Positions 18,276-29,404 of a stretch of 64,000 nt of DNA are shown piece after piece. This stretch comes from Gemmatimonadaceae bacterium (GTDB taxonomy: Bacteria; Gemmatimonadota; Gemmatimonadetes; Gemmatimonadales; Gemmatimonadaceae). A program made the translations under genes and the position numbers. Numbering within the stretch: the stretch's first letter is position 1; each line of letters opens with the position of its first letter. Location of the stretch: NCBI GenBank assembly GCA_020846935.1, contig JADLCY010000006.1, positions 186,001 through 250,000 on the forward strand, in the 5' to 3' direction. The notes below the pieces were generated by a model that was not told the DNA's origin, made no database searches, and saw only the letters and a program-made list of their open reading frames with translations.

Positions 18276-19244
18276 ATGGAGTCCGACTCGACCGAAGTCA
18301 TCAAGGTGACGACGCCCGACCAGGTCGAGGTCGTGCGCGCGCTATGCCTGGAATACGGGGCGGCGCTTGTGGCGCATGCAGGGAGTGATGAGGTACTCCG
18401 GGCGCAGGGCTTTGCCGAGGAGGTCGCAGCCCTGCCGGGGGCATATGCGTCGCCGCGAGGGGTGCTGCTTCTCGCACTGGTGAATGGCGACGCCGCCGGC
18501 TGCGTGGCGATCCGGCCGTCGGGCGAAGGTGCCGTGGAACTCAAGCGACTGTTCGTGCGACCGGCGTTTCGCGGGCAGTCGCTGGGCCGGCGACTGGTCA
18601 TCGAGGCCATCGAGGCCGCGTCGCGGCTCGGGGCGCGTCGCCTGCGGCTCGACACGCTGCCCTTCATGCGGAGTGCGGTGCGGCTCTATCGCTCGCTCGG
18701 CTTCGAGGAGATTCCGGCGTACGAGCCCAACCCGACCCCGGGTGCGCGCTTCTTCGAGTTGACGCTCGAGCCAGAGCAACCGCAAGCTACGCTCGAGCGC
18801 TACGCGCCAGGCGACGCCGCGCATTTCGAGCGATTGAATCGGGAGTGGCTGGAGGAGTACTTCCGGGTCGAGGACAAGGATCGTCGCTACTTTGCCGATC
18901 CGGAGGGCACGATCCTGAAGACCGGGGGAGCGATCTTCTTCGTGCGCGAGGGGGCACGTACCGTGGGCACGTGCGCATTGATCCGCGATCCGGATGGTCG
19001 ATTCGAACTCGCCAAGATGGCCGTACAATACGATTGCCGCGGCAAGGGCTACGGACAGTGGCTCGTGACCGCTGCGCTGGCGTATGCGCGGGAACAGGGT
19101 GCCACGCAGGTCTACCTCCTCTCCGACGAAAAGCTGGCTGACGCGCTGCGGCTCTACGAACGGATGGGGTTCGTTCGCAAACCGATCCCCGGCGCCACGG
19201 GGTACGCCAGGGGCGATGTCTACATGGACTATGCAGCGTGGTGA
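18276..19244 (+). CDS. Tandem GNAT-domain acetyltransferase
   Basis: This 322-residue protein contains two GNAT folds. The first (about 1-165) has the acetyl-CoA loop RPAFRGQSLGRRLV and a later LYRSLGFEEIPAY. The second (about 170-322) has YDCRGKGYGQWLV and LYERMGFVRKP. Both keep the Q/RxxGxG/A pyrophosphate-binding pattern, so both may bind acetyl-CoA. The substrate is unknown; the second half resembles small-molecule N-acetyltransferases. The gene ends 4 bases before the chosen start of the YceH-nitroreductase fusion. The 177-base upstream gap shows no clear promoter. Confidence 0.85.
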   Translation: MESDSTEVIKVTTPDQVEVVRALCLEYGAALVAHAGSDEVLRAQGFAEEVAALPGAYASPRGVLLLALVNGDAAGCVAIRPSGEGAVELKRLFVRPAFRGQSLGRRLVIEAIEAASRLGARRLRLDTLPFMRSAVRLYRSLGFEEIPAYEPNPTPGARFFELTLEPEQPQATLERYAPGDAAHFERLNREWLEEYFRVEDKDRRYFADPEGTILKTGGAIFFVREGARTVGTCALIRDPDGRFELAKMAVQYDCRGKGYGQWLVTAALAYAREQGATQVYLLSDEKLADALRLYERMGFVRKPIPGATGYARGDVYMDYAAW

Positions 19245-19248
19245 CCTG

Positions 19249-20355
19249 ATGGACCCACTCACCGACGTGCAGGTACGCGTGCTCGGTGCGCTAATCGAAA
19301 AAGCGCTCGCCACGCCCGACTACTACCCGCTCTCCCTCAACGCACTCACCGTTGCGTGCAACCAGTCATCCAACCGTGATCCCGTCGTGCACTACGAGGA
19401 AAGCGAGGTGCTGGCCGCGATCGACGGACTGCGGCGGCGCTCACTCGTCCGCGCGATCCAGAGGGTCGACTCGCGCGTGATGAAGTACCAGCACCTGCTC
19501 GCCGAGGCGTGGAACCTCGAGGCGGGCGAGCTGGCGCTGCTGGGCGTGCTCGCGCTGCGTGGTGCGCAGACAGGAGCCGAGCTGCGCACGCGCACGGCGC
19601 GTCTCCACGCGTTTGCCGACGGGGAGGCCGTCGATCAGGCCCTGCACAACCTCGCGGAACGTGAAGGTTCGCCGCTCGTCAGGCGCCTCGATCGTCGTGC
19701 AGGGCAGAAGGAGGCGCGCTACACACACCTCCTCGCCGGAGAGCCGCTGCTCCCGCACGCGGTGCAACCGCCAGCCGTGGCCATTCCCGCAATGCACGTC
19801 ACCGATGCCATCTCGCAGCGCCGTTCGATCCGAAAGTTTGCCGAGCGGCCCCTCACGCGATCGGAACTCGAGCCGCTCCTCGAGGCGGCTGTCCTCGCGC
19901 CCAACCACAAGCTGACGCAGCCGTGGCGCTACTACGTCCTCGGGCCGGTGGCCCGTCGGCGCTATGGTCTCGCGCTCGGCGACCGCAAGGCCCGCAAGCT
20001 GCCGGACGCGGACGCTGCCGCGGCCGTAAGGGAAAAGACCGCGGCGGAGTACGAAGCGTTTCCCGCGCTCATCGCCGTCGCGATGGTGCAGAGCGACAGT
20101 CCGGAGCAGCGGGAGGAGGACTACGCCGCCGTGATGCAGGCGGTCGCCCTCATGATGCTCGTGGCGGTCGAACGCGGACTGGGCACGCACGTGCGCTCGG
20201 GAGCGGTGATGGAAGACCCCGCCGCGCGTGCGGCCGTCGGCGTCCGGGACGGAGAGCGCATCGTCGCGATACTCAGCGTGGGAGTCCCGGCCGAAACACC
20301 GGGGCCAAGAACGCGTCCGGCAGCGAGCGAGTTCACGACCTGGGTGGGGCTATAG
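19249..20355 (+). CDS. YceH (DUF480) domain fused to a nitroreductase domain
   Basis: From ATG 19249 (an ATG at 19231 overlaps the upstream gene) the protein has 368 residues. Residues 1-180 match YceH: VRVLGALIEKALATPDYYPL, ALTVACNQSSNRDPV, GLRRRSLVR. These are tandem winged-helix domains of unknown role. Residues about 181-368 form a complete nitroreductase: AISQRRSIRKF, EAAVLAPNHKLTQPWRYYV, then MMLVAVERGLGTH, the typical FMN-binding family pattern. The usual YceH protein ends near residue 215, so the join replaces its tail. The frame is continuous, so this is one protein, not two genes. The function of the fusion is unknown. Confidence 0.85.
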   Translation: MDPLTDVQVRVLGALIEKALATPDYYPLSLNALTVACNQSSNRDPVVHYEESEVLAAIDGLRRRSLVRAIQRVDSRVMKYQHLLAEAWNLEAGELALLGVLALRGAQTGAELRTRTARLHAFADGEAVDQALHNLAEREGSPLVRRLDRRAGQKEARYTHLLAGEPLLPHAVQPPAVAIPAMHVTDAISQRRSIRKFAERPLTRSELEPLLEAAVLAPNHKLTQPWRYYVLGPVARRRYGLALGDRKARKLPDADAAAAVREKTAAEYEAFPALIAVAMVQSDSPEQREEDYAAVMQAVALMMLVAVERGLGTHVRSGAVMEDPAARAAVGVRDGERIVAILSVGVPAETPGPRTRPAASEFTTWVGL

Positions 20356-20472: not shown

Positions 20473-21474
20473 TCAGACGCTCAGTCTGACGAGGTCGACG
20501 CCCGCCTCCCTGAGCATCCGCGTGGCCGTCTCGTTGAGTGGATACGACTCATTGTAGACAACCTTCCTGATGCCGGCGTTGATGATCATCTTGCTGCAGA
20601 GCAGGCACGGGGAGTACGTCGTGTAGAGCGTGGCATCGCGGATGGCGATGCCGTGGTACGACGCCTGGACGATCGCGTTCTCCTCCCCGTGCGAGCAGAG
20701 GCACTCCTCCAGGTTCTTGCCGCTCTCGCTGAAGCCGTTGCACCGTGGGCAGCCGCCTTCGTTGCAGTTCTTCACCCCGCGGGGCGTGCCGTTGTAGCCC
20801 GTGCTGATGATCCGCCGGTCGGCCACGATCACGGCCGCGACCTGGCGCTTCATGCAGTTGCTGCGCGCGGCGACCTGACGGGCGATGTCCATGAAGTAGC
20901 GGTCCCACGTCGGGCGGGCGGACGACACCTCCACGTCGCGCAGCGCGCTCGCGACGCGCTCGGCGAACTCGTCCAGCGTCCCGTGATTCTCGATGACCCG
21001 ATTGGCCAGCCGCTCCGTCTCGAGCAACTGCTGTGCGGCCACGTTGCTGCTCGCGAACTCGCGCTCCTCCTGGCGGATGAACTCCTGCAGCGTTCGGCCG
21101 TCGCCTTCGCGATTTCGCGCCTGCGCCCGGGCGAATCGTGATTCGAGGGCCGCAAAGACGTGGAAGAGCGTAAACGAGCCCGCCTTCCGAAGGGCGGCGA
21201 CTTCAGCCGGGTGGCGGATGCTGTCGACGACATAGTTCCGATCCGGCTGCATGCGCGCCACCGTCAGATCACCGAGCGCGCCGGGGCCGTGGCGCTCGCG
21301 CAACTCGTTGCCGAGCGCGATCAGGTTCTCGCGCTCCGCCGAGAGTCCGCGCCGCTTCGCCTCCTCGCGAATCGCATCGGACAGCGAGAGATAGGTGAAT
21401 CCCCTGGCGCCGAGCATTTCCCCGGCGGTGGTCTTGCCAGCGGCATTTCGGCCGGTCAGTCCAATGATGAGCAT
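20473..21474 (-). CDS. P-loop NTPase fused to deoxycytidylate deaminase (Dcd1/AvcD-like architecture)
   Basis: This 333-residue protein starts at ATG 21474. Residues 1-180 form a P-loop kinase-like domain: Walker A GRNAAGKT at 8-15, DSIRHPAE at 84-91, then a charged helix. Residues 188-333 are a dCMP deaminase: WDRYFM, NCMKRQVAAVIV, STGYNGTPRG, GGCPRC, CSHGEENA with His262 and Glu264, and SPCLLC with Cys290 and Cys293 for zinc. The motif reads HGE where HAE is usual. Yeast Dcd1 and the phage-defence AvcD/DcdV proteins share this domain order. Here the NTPase motif is intact. It would convert dCMP to dUMP; the NTPase role is unknown. Confidence 0.88.
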   Translation of the reverse strand: MLIIGLTGRNAAGKTTAGEMLGARGFTYLSLSDAIREEAKRRGLSAERENLIALGNELRERHGPGALGDLTVARMQPDRNYVVDSIRHPAEVAALRKAGSFTLFHVFAALESRFARAQARNREGDGRTLQEFIRQEEREFASSNVAAQQLLETERLANRVIENHGTLDEFAERVASALRDVEVSSARPTWDRYFMDIARQVAARSNCMKRQVAAVIVADRRIISTGYNGTPRGVKNCNEGGCPRCNGFSESGKNLEECLCSHGEENAIVQASYHGIAIRDATLYTTYSPCLLCSKMIINAGIRKVVYNESYPLNETATRMLREAGVDLVRLSV

Positions 21475-21811
21475 CGAATATGGAGTCGCGCGGGAAAGAG
21501 CCGCGCGAAAGATCGACTCGTCGCTGCGCGCCGGGAAGGCGTGTGATCGCGCTTGAAGCGCGCCGCGTTGGTGTGATTTCGCGCCAACATTCCGAGCGCC
21601 TCCCCTGCGCAATCTCCTCGTTCAGCCAGTCGCAGTGCTCGCAGGATCCGTTGCCTGGCGGTGGTCCGGCTGGTGGTCCAGGCGTTCGCGACAATCCAGG
21701 GCATCCGAGACTATCCCGCGAGCTGCTCGCCTTGCGGCCCTGGGCGTTCCTGAGACTCTGTCGCCGTCGCCGCCCCCCGGAGTCGCTCGGTACAGCGGCC
21801 ACCTCATGGCT
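21475..21811. other. Intergenic stretch, 337 bases, no gene recognised
   Basis: It lies between the divergent deaminase fusion (minus) and the decayed DsbA-like gene (plus). CGCGCGG (21487-21493) pairs with CCGCGCG (21501-21507) just ahead of the deaminase start. Short open frames here show no family pattern and poor codon use. A small RNA on the minus strand, as accompanies avcD in Vibrio, would have to lie here, but nothing in the sequence demonstrates one. Confidence 0.4.
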
Positions 21812-22435
21812 GATGCGCAAATCGGTTCTATGCGTGTCGCCTGTTGCGGCTGTCTCCGCGCACTTCCGGGTATCCGGGCGCTCCCTGGAGCCGCAGTGAG
21901 GTGGTCAGGGCTCCCCACACCAAGCAGGTCTGCACGAACCCTCTCAGCATGGCCGCCATCCCGCTGTGGTCGGGCGTCGGCACGGCTCAGCTTGTCGAGG
22001 TGTCGGACCACGAATGCCCGTTCTGTCGACGGGTGAAGGCCGTCGTCGATTCCGCCGTGACTTCGGGACTTCCGGGTTCCCAACCTTCACTATCCCGTGC
22101 CTGCCCATCCGCAGGCCAAGCTCGGTGCCTTGGCCGCCACGTGTGCCAGGCAGGCGGGCGAGTTCCTTCCACTGCACAACTACCTGATGCGCGATTCGAC
22201 GTGGCAGGCGGGATCTGCCTGGGAGAAGCATGCGTGCTGAGCCGGGATCCGCGATCCGTCCAACCTCGTCACGTGCATGCACTCCGTCAATGCAGCGGAG
22301 ATGCTGGTGCGCGAGCTGGCTTGGGGTGACACTATTGGCGTAAACGGAACCCCGACCATCGTAAGCCGCACTGGGGTCCATCGGGGCGTCGCGACATACG
22401 AACAGCTGCGTCGACTTGCGGGAACGGAACGGTGA
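21812..22435 (+). pseudogene. Decayed DsbA-like/thioredoxin-fold gene
   Basis: Pieces of one thioredoxin-fold protein lie in three frames. A possible signal segment starts at ATG 21812 (MRKSVLCVSPVAAVSAHF) and soon stops. The active site VEVSDHECPFCRRV (CPFC at 22015-22026) is in a second frame. From about 22061 the third frame gives VPNLHYPVPAHPQAK, ARQAGEFLPLHNYL, an in-frame TGA at 22238-22240, then DPSNLVTCMHSVNAAE and the cis-proline loop IGVNGTPTIV (about 22334-22360). At least one frameshift (22055-22062) and one nonsense codon break it. Its final TGA overlaps the next start (GTGA), so it once headed this operon. Confidence 0.78.
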
Positions 22436-25860: not shown

Positions 25861-27404
25861 GCCACCTTCCGGACCGGGGCCGAGGACTCGCTTCGATCCG
25901 GCGATACGGGCGCGGGATGAGTAAACGACGAAAGCATGCCGACGATGACGGTGATGGACGTTCCGATGAGCACGTACCAGGGCCACGCGATGCGCGCGAA
26001 CGGGCCCAGGGTTTGAGCGAGCGAAGGGTAAGCGGTCGAGATCTGCCGTGCAAACACCACGAAGGACATGGCCGCGATCCCCACCACGAGGCCCGTGATG
26101 GCGTCGCGCTGCGTGGCTCGGCGCCAGAAGTTGCCGAGAAAGAACGTGCCGAGCAGGCCGCCGTAGGTGAACGACGCAATGCCGAGCGCCACCACGACCA
26201 CCGGCGTGCCCTGCTCCTTGAACAGCAGCGCGCCGCCGGTGAGCACGACGCCCCAGAACAGCGCGAAGAGCTTGCCGGCCTTGAGCGTCTCCGGATCGCT
26301 GGCCTTGCGGCGCGAGAGCGGGAGGTAGATGTCGTGCGTCGTGGCGGCGGCGAGTGAGTTGATCGCCCCCGAATGGGTGCTCATCGTCGCCGCGACGATG
26401 GCTGCAATGAGGAGCCCAACGAGCCCCGGCGGCATCCGTTCGATGATGAACGTCGGGAAGATCGCGTCGGGAGCCGAGAACTCCCGGCCACCGTACAACA
26501 CGAAGAGCCCGATCCCGATGAAGAGGAACAAGGTGAACTGCAGGAACACGGTGATGCCGCTGCCGATGATCGCACGCTGCGCGTCCTTCAGGCTCTTCGA
26601 CGACAGCAGGCGCTGCACGATGAGCTGGTCGGCCCCGTGCGAAGCCATCGCCAGGAATGCGCCACCGATCAAGCCGGCAAAGACCGTGTGCGGCCGATCC
26701 ATTCCGGTGGAGAAGTCGAGCAGTTGCAGCTTGCCCTGCGCACCCGCCCGTTCCATGATGGCGCCCCAGCCGCCATCCACCGCGCCGCCGATCAGGACGA
26801 TCGCCGAAAGCCCACCCAGGATGTACACCGTGGCCTGCACGATCTCGGTCCACACGACGGCCTTCATGCCGCCGCGGTAGGTGTAGATCACGGTCAGCAC
26901 ACCGAGGATGACGATGGCGGCGGGCATCACCGTGGCGCGCGATGCCTCGTCGCCGAGAATCAGCGCCACCGGAATCGCCGTGGCGAACACGCGCACGGCA
27001 TCGGCCAGCGCGCGCGTGAACATGAAGACGATCGATGTGAGTCGGCGCGTTGCCAGGCCAAAGCGCTTCTCGAGGAGCGCGTATGCCGTGACGATCTCGC
27101 CCTGGTAGTACCGCGGCAGCAGGGCGTACGCGACCACGATGCGCCCGATGATGTACCCGGCGGCTACCTGCAGAAAGCCGAGGTTCCCCGTATAGGCGAG
27201 CCCCGGGATCGAGATGAACGTGAGCGCACTCGTCTCCGTGGCCACGATCGAGAACATCACCGCCCACCATGGGATGGCGCGATCGGCGACGAAGTAGTCC
27301 TTCGCATCGGCCTGTCGTCGACCGACCCACATGCCGAGCGCGGTCGTCCCGGCGAGGTAGGCGAGCAGGACCAGGCCGTCGAGAAGCGTGAATCGCAGTT
27401 GCAT
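25857..27404 (-). CDS. Sodium:solute symporter (SSS family)
   Basis: This 515-residue protein has 13-14 hydrophobic segments. SSS features are TTALGMWVGRRQ, DYFVADRAIPWWAV, FSIVATETSALTFISIPG (sodium-site region), the TYRGGMKAVVWTEIVQ motif and AAIVAATMSTHSGAINSLAA. The ATG shares one base with the stop of the upstream nagB fusion (TGATG), and its own stop overlaps the kinase start. It resembles the SGLT/sialic-acid-like branch that imports unmodified sugars, consistent with a downstream sugar kinase. The substrate is inferred to be GlcNAc or a related amino sugar. Confidence 0.88.
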   Translation of the reverse strand: MQLRFTLLDGLVLLAYLAGTTALGMWVGRRQADAKDYFVADRAIPWWAVMFSIVATETSALTFISIPGLAYTGNLGFLQVAAGYIIGRIVVAYALLPRYYQGEIVTAYALLEKRFGLATRRLTSIVFMFTRALADAVRVFATAIPVALILGDEASRATVMPAAIVILGVLTVIYTYRGGMKAVVWTEIVQATVYILGGLSAIVLIGGAVDGGWGAIMERAGAQGKLQLLDFSTGMDRPHTVFAGLIGGAFLAMASHGADQLIVQRLLSSKSLKDAQRAIIGSGITVFLQFTLFLFIGIGLFVLYGGREFSAPDAIFPTFIIERMPPGLVGLLIAAIVAATMSTHSGAINSLAAATTHDIYLPLSRRKASDPETLKAGKLFALFWGVVLTGGALLFKEQGTPVVVVALGIASFTYGGLLGTFFLGNFWRRATQRDAITGLVVGIAAMSFVVFARQISTAYPSLAQTLGPFARIAWPWYVLIGTSITVIVGMLSSFTHPAPVSPDRSESSAPVRKVA

Positions 27405-29404
27405 CAGGAGTCCGGCAGGGTGACGTACGCCTCCATCGCGAAATACTCCGCGAGGCCAAGCTGATTGAGGATGTGCGCCGTGTCGCGATTGCGCGCATCG
27501 ACCCGCTGCCAGAACTCCCGGTCGTCCTGGCCGGGGAAGGGCGCCGAGTCCTTCTGCGACTGGTGCTTGAAGATCGCCTGGATCTTGAGCTGCAGCTCTT
27601 CCTGTGACAACGGCACCAGGTACGTTGCCTCGGTCACCGGCCACTCCTGCCATGCGCCGCGATAGAGCCACACCTCCGGCCGTTCGCGCAACGTGCCTGC
27701 CGTGCGCGTCTCGGCGAGCGCGGCCTCGATCGCTTCCTTGCACATGCGATGCGTGCCGTGCGGGTCGGAGAGATCGCCGGCGATGAAGACGAAATGCGGC
27801 TGCACCTCTTCGAGCAGGGCGCGCACGATGGCGACGTCGCCCGGGCCAACGGGATCCTTGCGAACCTTCCCCGTCTGATAGAACGGCAAATCGAGAAAAC
27901 GCGCCGAACTCGCGGGGAGTCCCAGCGTCTCGATGCCGCTCACGGCCTCCGACTCGCGGATGATGCGCTTGATGTCCTGCACTTCGTCCACGTCGACGTC
28001 CCCGGACCGTTTGGATTCGAGAAAGGCAATCACGCGGTCTCGCATGGCGTTGACACCGCCGACGTCGAGCCCGCGCGCTGCGGCGAGCCGCGCGAGGAAG
28101 TCCACGTAGCGTCGCACGTCATGATCGAACACGGCAATATTGCCGCTCGTCATGTACGCCACGGTGATCGCGTTTTCGTTCTGCGCCAGCTTGAGCAGGA
28201 TCCCGCCCATGGAGATGACGTCGTCATCGGGGTGCGGGGAGAAACAGATCACCCGAAGGCCACGAGGCAGCTTGGACTTGCCGCGAATCTTGGCGCCCAG
28301 TCGGTTGAAGACGAGCCCGTTCACCGCACCAGGCGATCCGTAGTGCGCCACGAGCGATGAGAGCGCGTGCTCCGCGTAGTCACCGTGCGTGAGCTTGAGG
28401 ATGGCGCGCTTCGTCGTCAGCGAGAGCCACACGACGGCTCGCTCCGCGGCGGTGTCGTCCCACGCCACGGCGTCGAGCAACCAGGGCGTTGCCACCTTCG
28501 TGAGGTCGGCGGCCGCGGCCTGGTCGATGTAGAACGTGCAGTTGGAGTGCCTCTGCAGGAACGTCGCCGCCACCTCGAGGTCCACATCGCCTTCGATCGC
28601 GCGTCGAACGATCGCCGCCTTGTGTTCTCCGGTGGCGAGGATGGCCACCTCGCGCGCGCTCATGATCGTGGCGATGCCCATGGTCACGGCCTCGCGCGGC
28701 ACATGTTCTTCGCCAAAGAAGTCGGCCGCCGCGTCGCGGCGCGTCACCAGGTCGAGCGTCACACGCCGTGTCCGCGACTCGAAACTCGACCCGGGCTCGT
28801 TGAAGCCGATATGCCCCGTCTTTCCGATCCCGAGGATCTGGAAGTCGATGCCGCCCGCCGCCGCGATCGCCGCTTCGTACGCCGCGCAATGGGACGCGAG
28901 ATCCTGGGCGGCTACGTCGCCACGCGGGATATGTATGTGCGAAGCCGGGATGTCGATGTGCGCAAACAGATTCTCATGCATGAACCGGTGGTACGAGTGC
29001 ATGCTGTCCGGCGCCATCGGGTAGTACTCGTCCAGGTTGAACGTCACGACATGCGCGAATGAGAGCCCCTCGTCGCGATGCATGCGGATCAGTTCGCGAT
29101 AGACGCCGATCGGGGTCGAGCCTGTCGCAAGCCCAAGGACGCACGTTTTCCCCTCGGCTGCGCGCGCGCGAACCAGCGCGGCAATGCGGTGCGCGACCTC
29201 GCGTGCGACCGTGTCGTGGTCGGCCAGGACGAGGGAAGGGATGCGCTCGTGTGGCCAGGTGCGAGGTGTGGGGGTGCCGATGGCGCCGCTGGGGCCCGAG
29301 TGGGAGGGGCCGAAAGGCGACGGCCCGCGATGCGTGGTCACATCGCGGGCCGCTTCCTCACCAGCGCCGGCACCGGCCGATTGGCCAGTCACCGACGGAG
29401 TCAT
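27404..29404 (-). CDS. nagB: Glucosamine-6-phosphate deaminase fused to a PIG-L/LmbE deacetylase
   Basis: This 666-residue protein has a low-complexity N-tail (about 1-50). The NagB domain follows: GLATGSTPIGVYREL, FNLDEYYPM, LGIGKTGHIGFNEPGSSF. After about residue 380 comes a PIG-L deacetylase domain: CFSPHPDDDVISMGGIL (zinc motif near 388-393) and DLSDPHGTHRM. Such long NagB proteins are known in Bacteroidota. NagB turns glucosamine-6-phosphate into fructose-6-phosphate and ammonia. The second domain could remove the N-acetyl group first, replacing NagA, which is absent here. The ATG has no clear Shine-Dalgarno, so the true start may be internal. It begins 12 bases after the erpA-like gene. 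Confidence 0.88.
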   Translation of the reverse strand: MTPSVTGQSAGAGAGEEAARDVTTHRGPSPFGPSHSGPSGAIGTPTPRTWPHERIPSLVLADHDTVAREVAHRIAALVRARAAEGKTCVLGLATGSTPIGVYRELIRMHRDEGLSFAHVVTFNLDEYYPMAPDSMHSYHRFMHENLFAHIDIPASHIHIPRGDVAAQDLASHCAAYEAAIAAAGGIDFQILGIGKTGHIGFNEPGSSFESRTRRVTLDLVTRRDAAADFFGEEHVPREAVTMGIATIMSAREVAILATGEHKAAIVRRAIEGDVDLEVAATFLQRHSNCTFYIDQAAAADLTKVATPWLLDAVAWDDTAAERAVVWLSLTTKRAILKLTHGDYAEHALSSLVAHYGSPGAVNGLVFNRLGAKIRGKSKLPRGLRVICFSPHPDDDVISMGGILLKLAQNENAITVAYMTSGNIAVFDHDVRRYVDFLARLAAARGLDVGGVNAMRDRVIAFLESKRSGDVDVDEVQDIKRIIRESEAVSGIETLGLPASSARFLDLPFYQTGKVRKDPVGPGDVAIVRALLEEVQPHFVFIAGDLSDPHGTHRMCKEAIEAALAETRTAGTLRERPEVWLYRGAWQEWPVTEATYLVPLSQEELQLKIQAIFKHQSQKDSAPFPGQDDREFWQRVDARNRDTAHILNQLGLAEYFAMEAYVTLPDS

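Follow-up and report, generated by a model that had tools for sequence, protein, structure and literature searches.

A P-loop and dCMP deaminase fusion protein as a probable replacement for dCTP deaminase in Gemmatimonadota

The protein of 333 amino acids encoded at 20473-21474 of the window, the whole 64,000-nucleotide stretch of DNA analysed, is probably a dCMP deaminase with a housekeeping role in making dUMP, was acquired horizontally and has replaced the dCTP deaminase Dcd. We favour replacement because, within the family to which the host genome belongs, the fusion is confined to genomes without Dcd. It is a testable instance of non-homologous replacement in dUMP supply, an essential pathway, and its carrier is a two-domain enzyme common to bacteria and DPANN archaea. 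The evolutionary story is clear in one phylum, and the enzyme is a variant of a familiar type.

Domains, conserved residues and relatives

The fusion gene lies on the minus strand, starts with ATG and holds its stop codon within the span; the plus strand of 20473-21474 has no intact frame. There is one copy of the gene in the 4.52 Mb genome, whose nearest relatives are Gemmatimonadota. The features are as follows.

20473..21474, minus strand: coding sequence of the P-loop/dCMP deaminase fusion (open reading frame, Pfam, at least 380 related loci, 65-row alignment)
20935..21474, minus strand: N-terminal P-loop domain, residues 1-180, UPF0200/AdkA-like (profile match and AlphaFold match)
21430..21453, minus strand: Walker A motif GRNAAGKT, residues 8-15 (sequence; G8, G13 and K14 invariant in 65 rows)
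20482..20919, minus strand: C-terminal dCMP deaminase domain, residues 186-331 (PF00383; structure match to 2hvw)
20788..20799, minus strand: GYNG, residues 226-229, motif of the allosteric dCTP/dTTP site (invariant in 65 rows)
20695..20769, minus strand: cysteine-rich stretch N236-C260 (C237, C242, C245, C258 and C260 invariant)
20683..20691, minus strand: catalytic H262-G-E264 (sequence; HGE and HAE counts in relatives)
20596..20610, minus strand: catalytic zinc motif P289-C-L-L-C293 (P289, C290 and C293 invariant)
21475..22431, no strand: unannotated gap upstream of the fusion gene (Rfam null; 700 bases upstream unconserved)

Pfam placed AAA_18 at residues 4-126, with AAA_17 also N-terminal, and dCMP_cyt_deam_1 (PF00383) at residues 189-307 (E 7e-26), in agreement with a sequence-only reading that had described a kinase-like P-loop domain joined to a dCMP deaminase; GRNAAGKT was likewise found where that reading had put it. 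The N-terminal domain matched the profile of SSO1041 (3lw7/3h0k) with an E value of 2.8e-24. By target length, the AlphaFold model (pLDDT 88.7) aligned to the AMP-bound UPF0200 protein SSO1041 (3lw7) with TM 0.87 and to the S. mutans dCMP deaminase 2hvw with TM 0.86; its pTM is a moderate 0.70, which leaves uncertain how the two domains of the model sit relative to each other. SSO1041 shares the P-loop fold, the Walker lysine and the site arginines of the 333-aa protein but is a stand-alone archaeal protein without a deaminase. Conversely, the dCMP deaminases of S. mutans, T4 and human (DCTD) share the deaminase fold, HxE, PCxxC and GYNG but possess no P-loop domain. Unlike these deaminases, the 333-aa protein carries an invariant cysteine-rich stretch before HGE, and the pattern of cysteines from N236 to C260 suggests a possible second zinc site. 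The sequence-only reading ascribed the same order of P-loop and deaminase domains to yeast Dcd1.

At least 380 related loci were found in GTDB species genomes, in Gemmatimonadota, DPANN archaea, Acidobacteriota, Omnitrophota and other phyla. The best 80 of these relatives, from Gemmatimonadota, Micrarchaeota, Diapherotrites, Deltaproteobacteria, Acidobacteria, Omnitrophota and others, had the same two-domain layout, nearly all at about 330 aa. In an alignment of 65 rows, the invariant residues of the P-loop half were G8, G13, K14, S30-L31-S32, R48, R59, S85, R87, E91, R113, R116 and R120, and those of the deaminase half were the zinc and catalytic residues, GYNG and cysteines 237, 242, 245, 258 and 260. 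The number of related loci, the shared layout and the invariant residues together argue that the fusion is not a chance event.

The HxE and PCxxC motifs of zinc-dependent dCMP deaminases were present as H262, E264, P289, C290 and C293, all invariant, and the allosteric motif G(Y/W)N(A/G) was present as GYNG in 65/65 rows. In dCMP deaminases GYNG marks the allosteric site for dCTP and dTTP (PMC12088426). In the P-loop half, K14, S32-D33, R87, R113, R116 and R120 are common to 3lw7 and identify the domain as UPF0200/AdkA-like; the GIR/SIR motif has S85 in place of G. The impression that both sites are intact was borne out, as the Walker and zinc residues are present and invariant in relatives. 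The use of HGE rather than HAE, to which the sequence-only reading had drawn attention, is real at residues 262-264 but ordinary: among the best 80 relatives HGE occurred in 29 and HAE in 51, which ruled it out as a special feature. We found no biochemistry in the literature for any member of the fusion family.

Distribution relative to dCTP deaminase

Gram-negative bacteria meet the same need for dUMP with the dCTP deaminase Dcd (PF22769), whose fold and chemistry are unrelated to those of the 333-aa protein. dCTP deaminase is common in Gram-negative bacteria, and dCMP deaminase in Gram-positives and eukaryotes (PMC10733785). We surveyed 126 genomes of the window's own family (f1) with completeness of at least 85%. 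The fusion was present in five of the 126, all five without Dcd, and in none of the 115 Dcd-bearing genomes. At a completeness of 98% or more, the f1 genomes without Dcd were exactly the five that carried the fusion, and the 40 others had Dcd. Six f1 genomes possessed neither Dcd nor the fusion; these were fragmented (240-910 contigs) and 85-95% complete. In genus g9, one species carried the fusion without Dcd and 13 sister species carried Dcd without the fusion, a pattern that points to an independent swap.

Among 121 Gemmatimonadota genomes with completeness of 90% or more, three had the fusion and three, from a distant class, had a pair of overlapping genes for the same two domains. These three genomes of the distant class had no Dcd, and in G003 the two genes overlap by four bases (GTGA). 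Full-length Dcd was absent from six of the 121 genomes, five of which hold the fused or paired form. The association with missing Dcd was significant in f1 (hypergeometric p ~2e-6, worked by hand) and for the fused or paired form over the 121 Gemmatimonadota genomes (p 1.8e-7); the genomes are related and these p-values therefore overstate independence, a fair count of independent swaps being two or three.

The host genome contains ThyX and an apparently intact dUTPase; neither ThyA nor Dcd was found in it. Together with the swap distribution, this gene content fits a fusion that has taken over dUMP supply from Dcd. The swap (5/5 in f1 versus 0/115, and again in a second class) thus backs the earlier suggestion of a housekeeping dUMP source. 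The deaminase half would convert dCMP to dUMP at its zinc centre, and the dUMP would feed thymidylate synthesis, via ThyX in the host genome. In GYNG the protein has kept the motif of the site through which, in ordinary dCMP deaminases, dCTP acts as activator and dTTP as inhibitor.

Unusual matches to Dcd were seen in a few genomes. G280, a fusion-bearing genome that lacks an ordinary Dcd, encodes a DCD-like protein of 169 aa (L146:473-982); this weak match was rejected as a Dcd, being divergent and, by eye, missing the arginine of the GRSS motif. At G352:C5:434675-435667 and G353:C589:6302-7309, two DCD matches were present per frame of 826-836 aa, a possible tandem dCTP deaminase.

Alternative readings and the P-loop domain

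In other phyla the relation between the fusion and Dcd was mixed. Of the 129 Acidobacteriota genomes surveyed, 17 had the fused or abutting form and 15 of these also had Dcd, the same as background, and universal exclusion of Dcd by the fusion was thereby ruled out; one Gemmatimonadota genome (G106) likewise contains both the fusion form and Dcd. Joint occurrence in Acidobacteriota and several other phyla, together with the known capacity of dCTP and dCMP deaminases to coexist (PMC10733785), favours an accessory enzyme of nucleotide balance or salvage, with Dcd loss unrelated and the swap a coincidence of lineage. We consider this unlikely: none of the 115 Dcd-bearing members of f1 has the fusion, and the apparent independent swaps in genus g9 and in the second class also speak against it. 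In Acidobacteriota, relatives at separate loci anticorrelated with Dcd (10/47 vs 58/65). Stand-alone P-loop and deaminase proteins in this phylum (e.g. L132-L138) are unlinked, often co-occur and are found mostly in Dcd-less genomes.

The phage-defence proteins AvcD/DcdV are like the 333-aa protein in domain order and are homologous to it in both halves (193 bits with the PADLOC dCTPase model, 136.6 bits with the NCBIfam anti-phage model NF041025), and the distribution of the fusion is patchy, with horizontal transfer. A defence factor that depletes deoxycytidine nucleotides upon infection nevertheless seems very improbable. The NF041025 score does not reach the cutoff of 400, in contrast to the three DcdV-type proteins scanned, which scored 427-499. 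For comparison we took six proteins: five of the DcdV/AvcD type, all plasmid-borne, and a homologue from a phage record. In the alignment the P-loop is degenerate in these six (e.g. GAIGSGVKT, GPVGAGGSR, GAVGCNLAD) and intact, with its Walker lysine, in the 333-aa protein, which bears out the contrast with AvcD/DcdV drawn in the sequence-only reading. The LID arginines, kept here, are mostly replaced in DcdV-type proteins, which show GRND, GANE, GCND or GWND where the 333-aa protein has GYNG and which, at about 500-550 aa, possess a tail at the C-terminus and, ahead of HAE, an additional insert, both missing from it. In both domain trees DcdV formed one separate long-branch clade, although the long branches blur its exact position. 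The strict swap with Dcd within f1 also argues against defence.

Genomic context gave no sign of a defence role. None of the ten neighbouring ORFs tested in the window had a convincing defence match. The neighbours of about two dozen relatives were mostly housekeeping genes, and PADLOC gave only scattered generic matches among them, ruling out a defence-island context. The RNA inhibitor AvcI sits upstream of avcD (PMC9455884). Rfam detected no AvcI-like RNA upstream of the fusion gene, though AvcI may be absent from Rfam, and the upstream 700 bases were unconserved among relatives with proteins 81-86% identical. Placement with ordinary dCMP deaminases in a conserved housekeeping context had been named as evidence against defence; the phylogeny does set the protein apart from DcdV, but no conserved neighbourhood of any kind accompanies it. 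The housekeeping reading is preferred, and to call every P-loop plus deaminase protein an anti-phage defence system would mislabel the fusion family. A DcdV-type gene was also seen on many similar Klebsiella plasmids of 4.6 kb (L131, matches H91-H110), where it occupies about one third of the plasmid.

The housekeeping reading leaves a part for the P-loop half, which is probably an added nucleotide sensor or nucleoside-monophosphate kinase and would couple deamination to energy or dNTP state. The two domains are linked as a fusion, as an overlapping pair or as an abutting pair in two phyla, which argues that the two halves cooperate. All the fused, paired and separate forms that we compared agree at K14, S32, R36, R59, R87, R113, R116 and R120, and SSO1041, a protein crystallised with AMP, has most of the nucleotide-site residues too. 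Just behind the Walker lysine the sequence varied by lineage (GKGE in 24, GKGT in 12, GKTT in 10 and GKTV in 8 of the best 80 relatives). We lean towards a sensor or regulator, although the domain may be catalytic.

A catalytic P-loop domain would allow a self-contained route from dCDP to dUMP, in which the kinase, in reverse or by phosphotransfer, hands dCMP to the deaminase and a single protein takes over from both Dcd and dUTPase; this is a sub-case of dUMP supply. The fully intact nucleotide-site residues, the weak profile likeness to DNMK, (d)CMP kinase and UMP/CMP kinase models and the linkage of the domains in all three arrangements are in its favour. It is doubtful all the same, as the variable residues after the Walker lysine would be odd for a strict catalyst and dUTPase is retained in the host genome; activity data for UPF0200 were not found in the literature. 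We give a similarly small chance to a broader form, in which bacteria and DPANN archaea share a bifunctional family whose UPF0200-type kinase and deaminase act on the same dC nucleotide, a one-protein dUMP route that would have displaced Dcd more than once, with DcdV/AvcD as a defence offshoot whose kinase site was lost. We found no explanation of the role of the P-loop domain for either UPF0200 or DcdV, and a metabolic relative of AvcD/DcdV with an intact P-loop allows that role to be studied in a simpler protein.

Origin and surroundings of the gene

The Gemmatimonadota copies formed a single clade in each of the two domain trees (SH-aLRT 99), and a Micrarchaeota copy adjoined this clade among the archaeal copies (SH-aLRT 90 and 99). 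The archaeal contigs L004 and L006 have neighbours in common and GC contents of 0.57 and 0.53, compared with 0.67 in the window; contamination is therefore an unlikely source of the archaeal link. Identity between the genera compared was similar for the fusion (81-86%) and ThyX (81-89%), but the fusion had its nearest relative in G121 and ThyX in G124. The G106 copy showed 82% identity for the fusion versus 59% for dUTPase, which points to a further transfer. Judged from these trees and identities, the gene was most likely gained horizontally, perhaps from DPANN archaea as donor, and Dcd would have been lost afterwards.

No conserved operon was seen across phyla or among Gemmatimonadota genera, nor a conserved gene neighbourhood tying the fusion to thymidylate genes. 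The gene stands alone, as the sequence-only reading had stated: its downstream neighbour, a DUF480-nitroreductase gene, is convergent with it, and the next ORF upstream starts only at 22432. The supposed decayed region nearby was not upheld, since the gap at 21475-22431 is merely unannotated, with zero Rfam matches and no Pfam match for the single ORF tested there.

Several neighbouring genes in the window also encode joined domains. The frame at 19084-20355 (plus strand) combines DUF480 (YceH-type) and nitroreductase in a single 423-aa protein, an unusual join, and an ORF related to it was also found near the fusion gene at L001. At 27404-29404 (minus strand) a NagB-like glucosamine-6-phosphate isomerase is joined to a PIG-L deacetylase domain, and at 18276-19244 (plus strand) a 322-aa protein contains tandem GNAT acetyltransferase domains.
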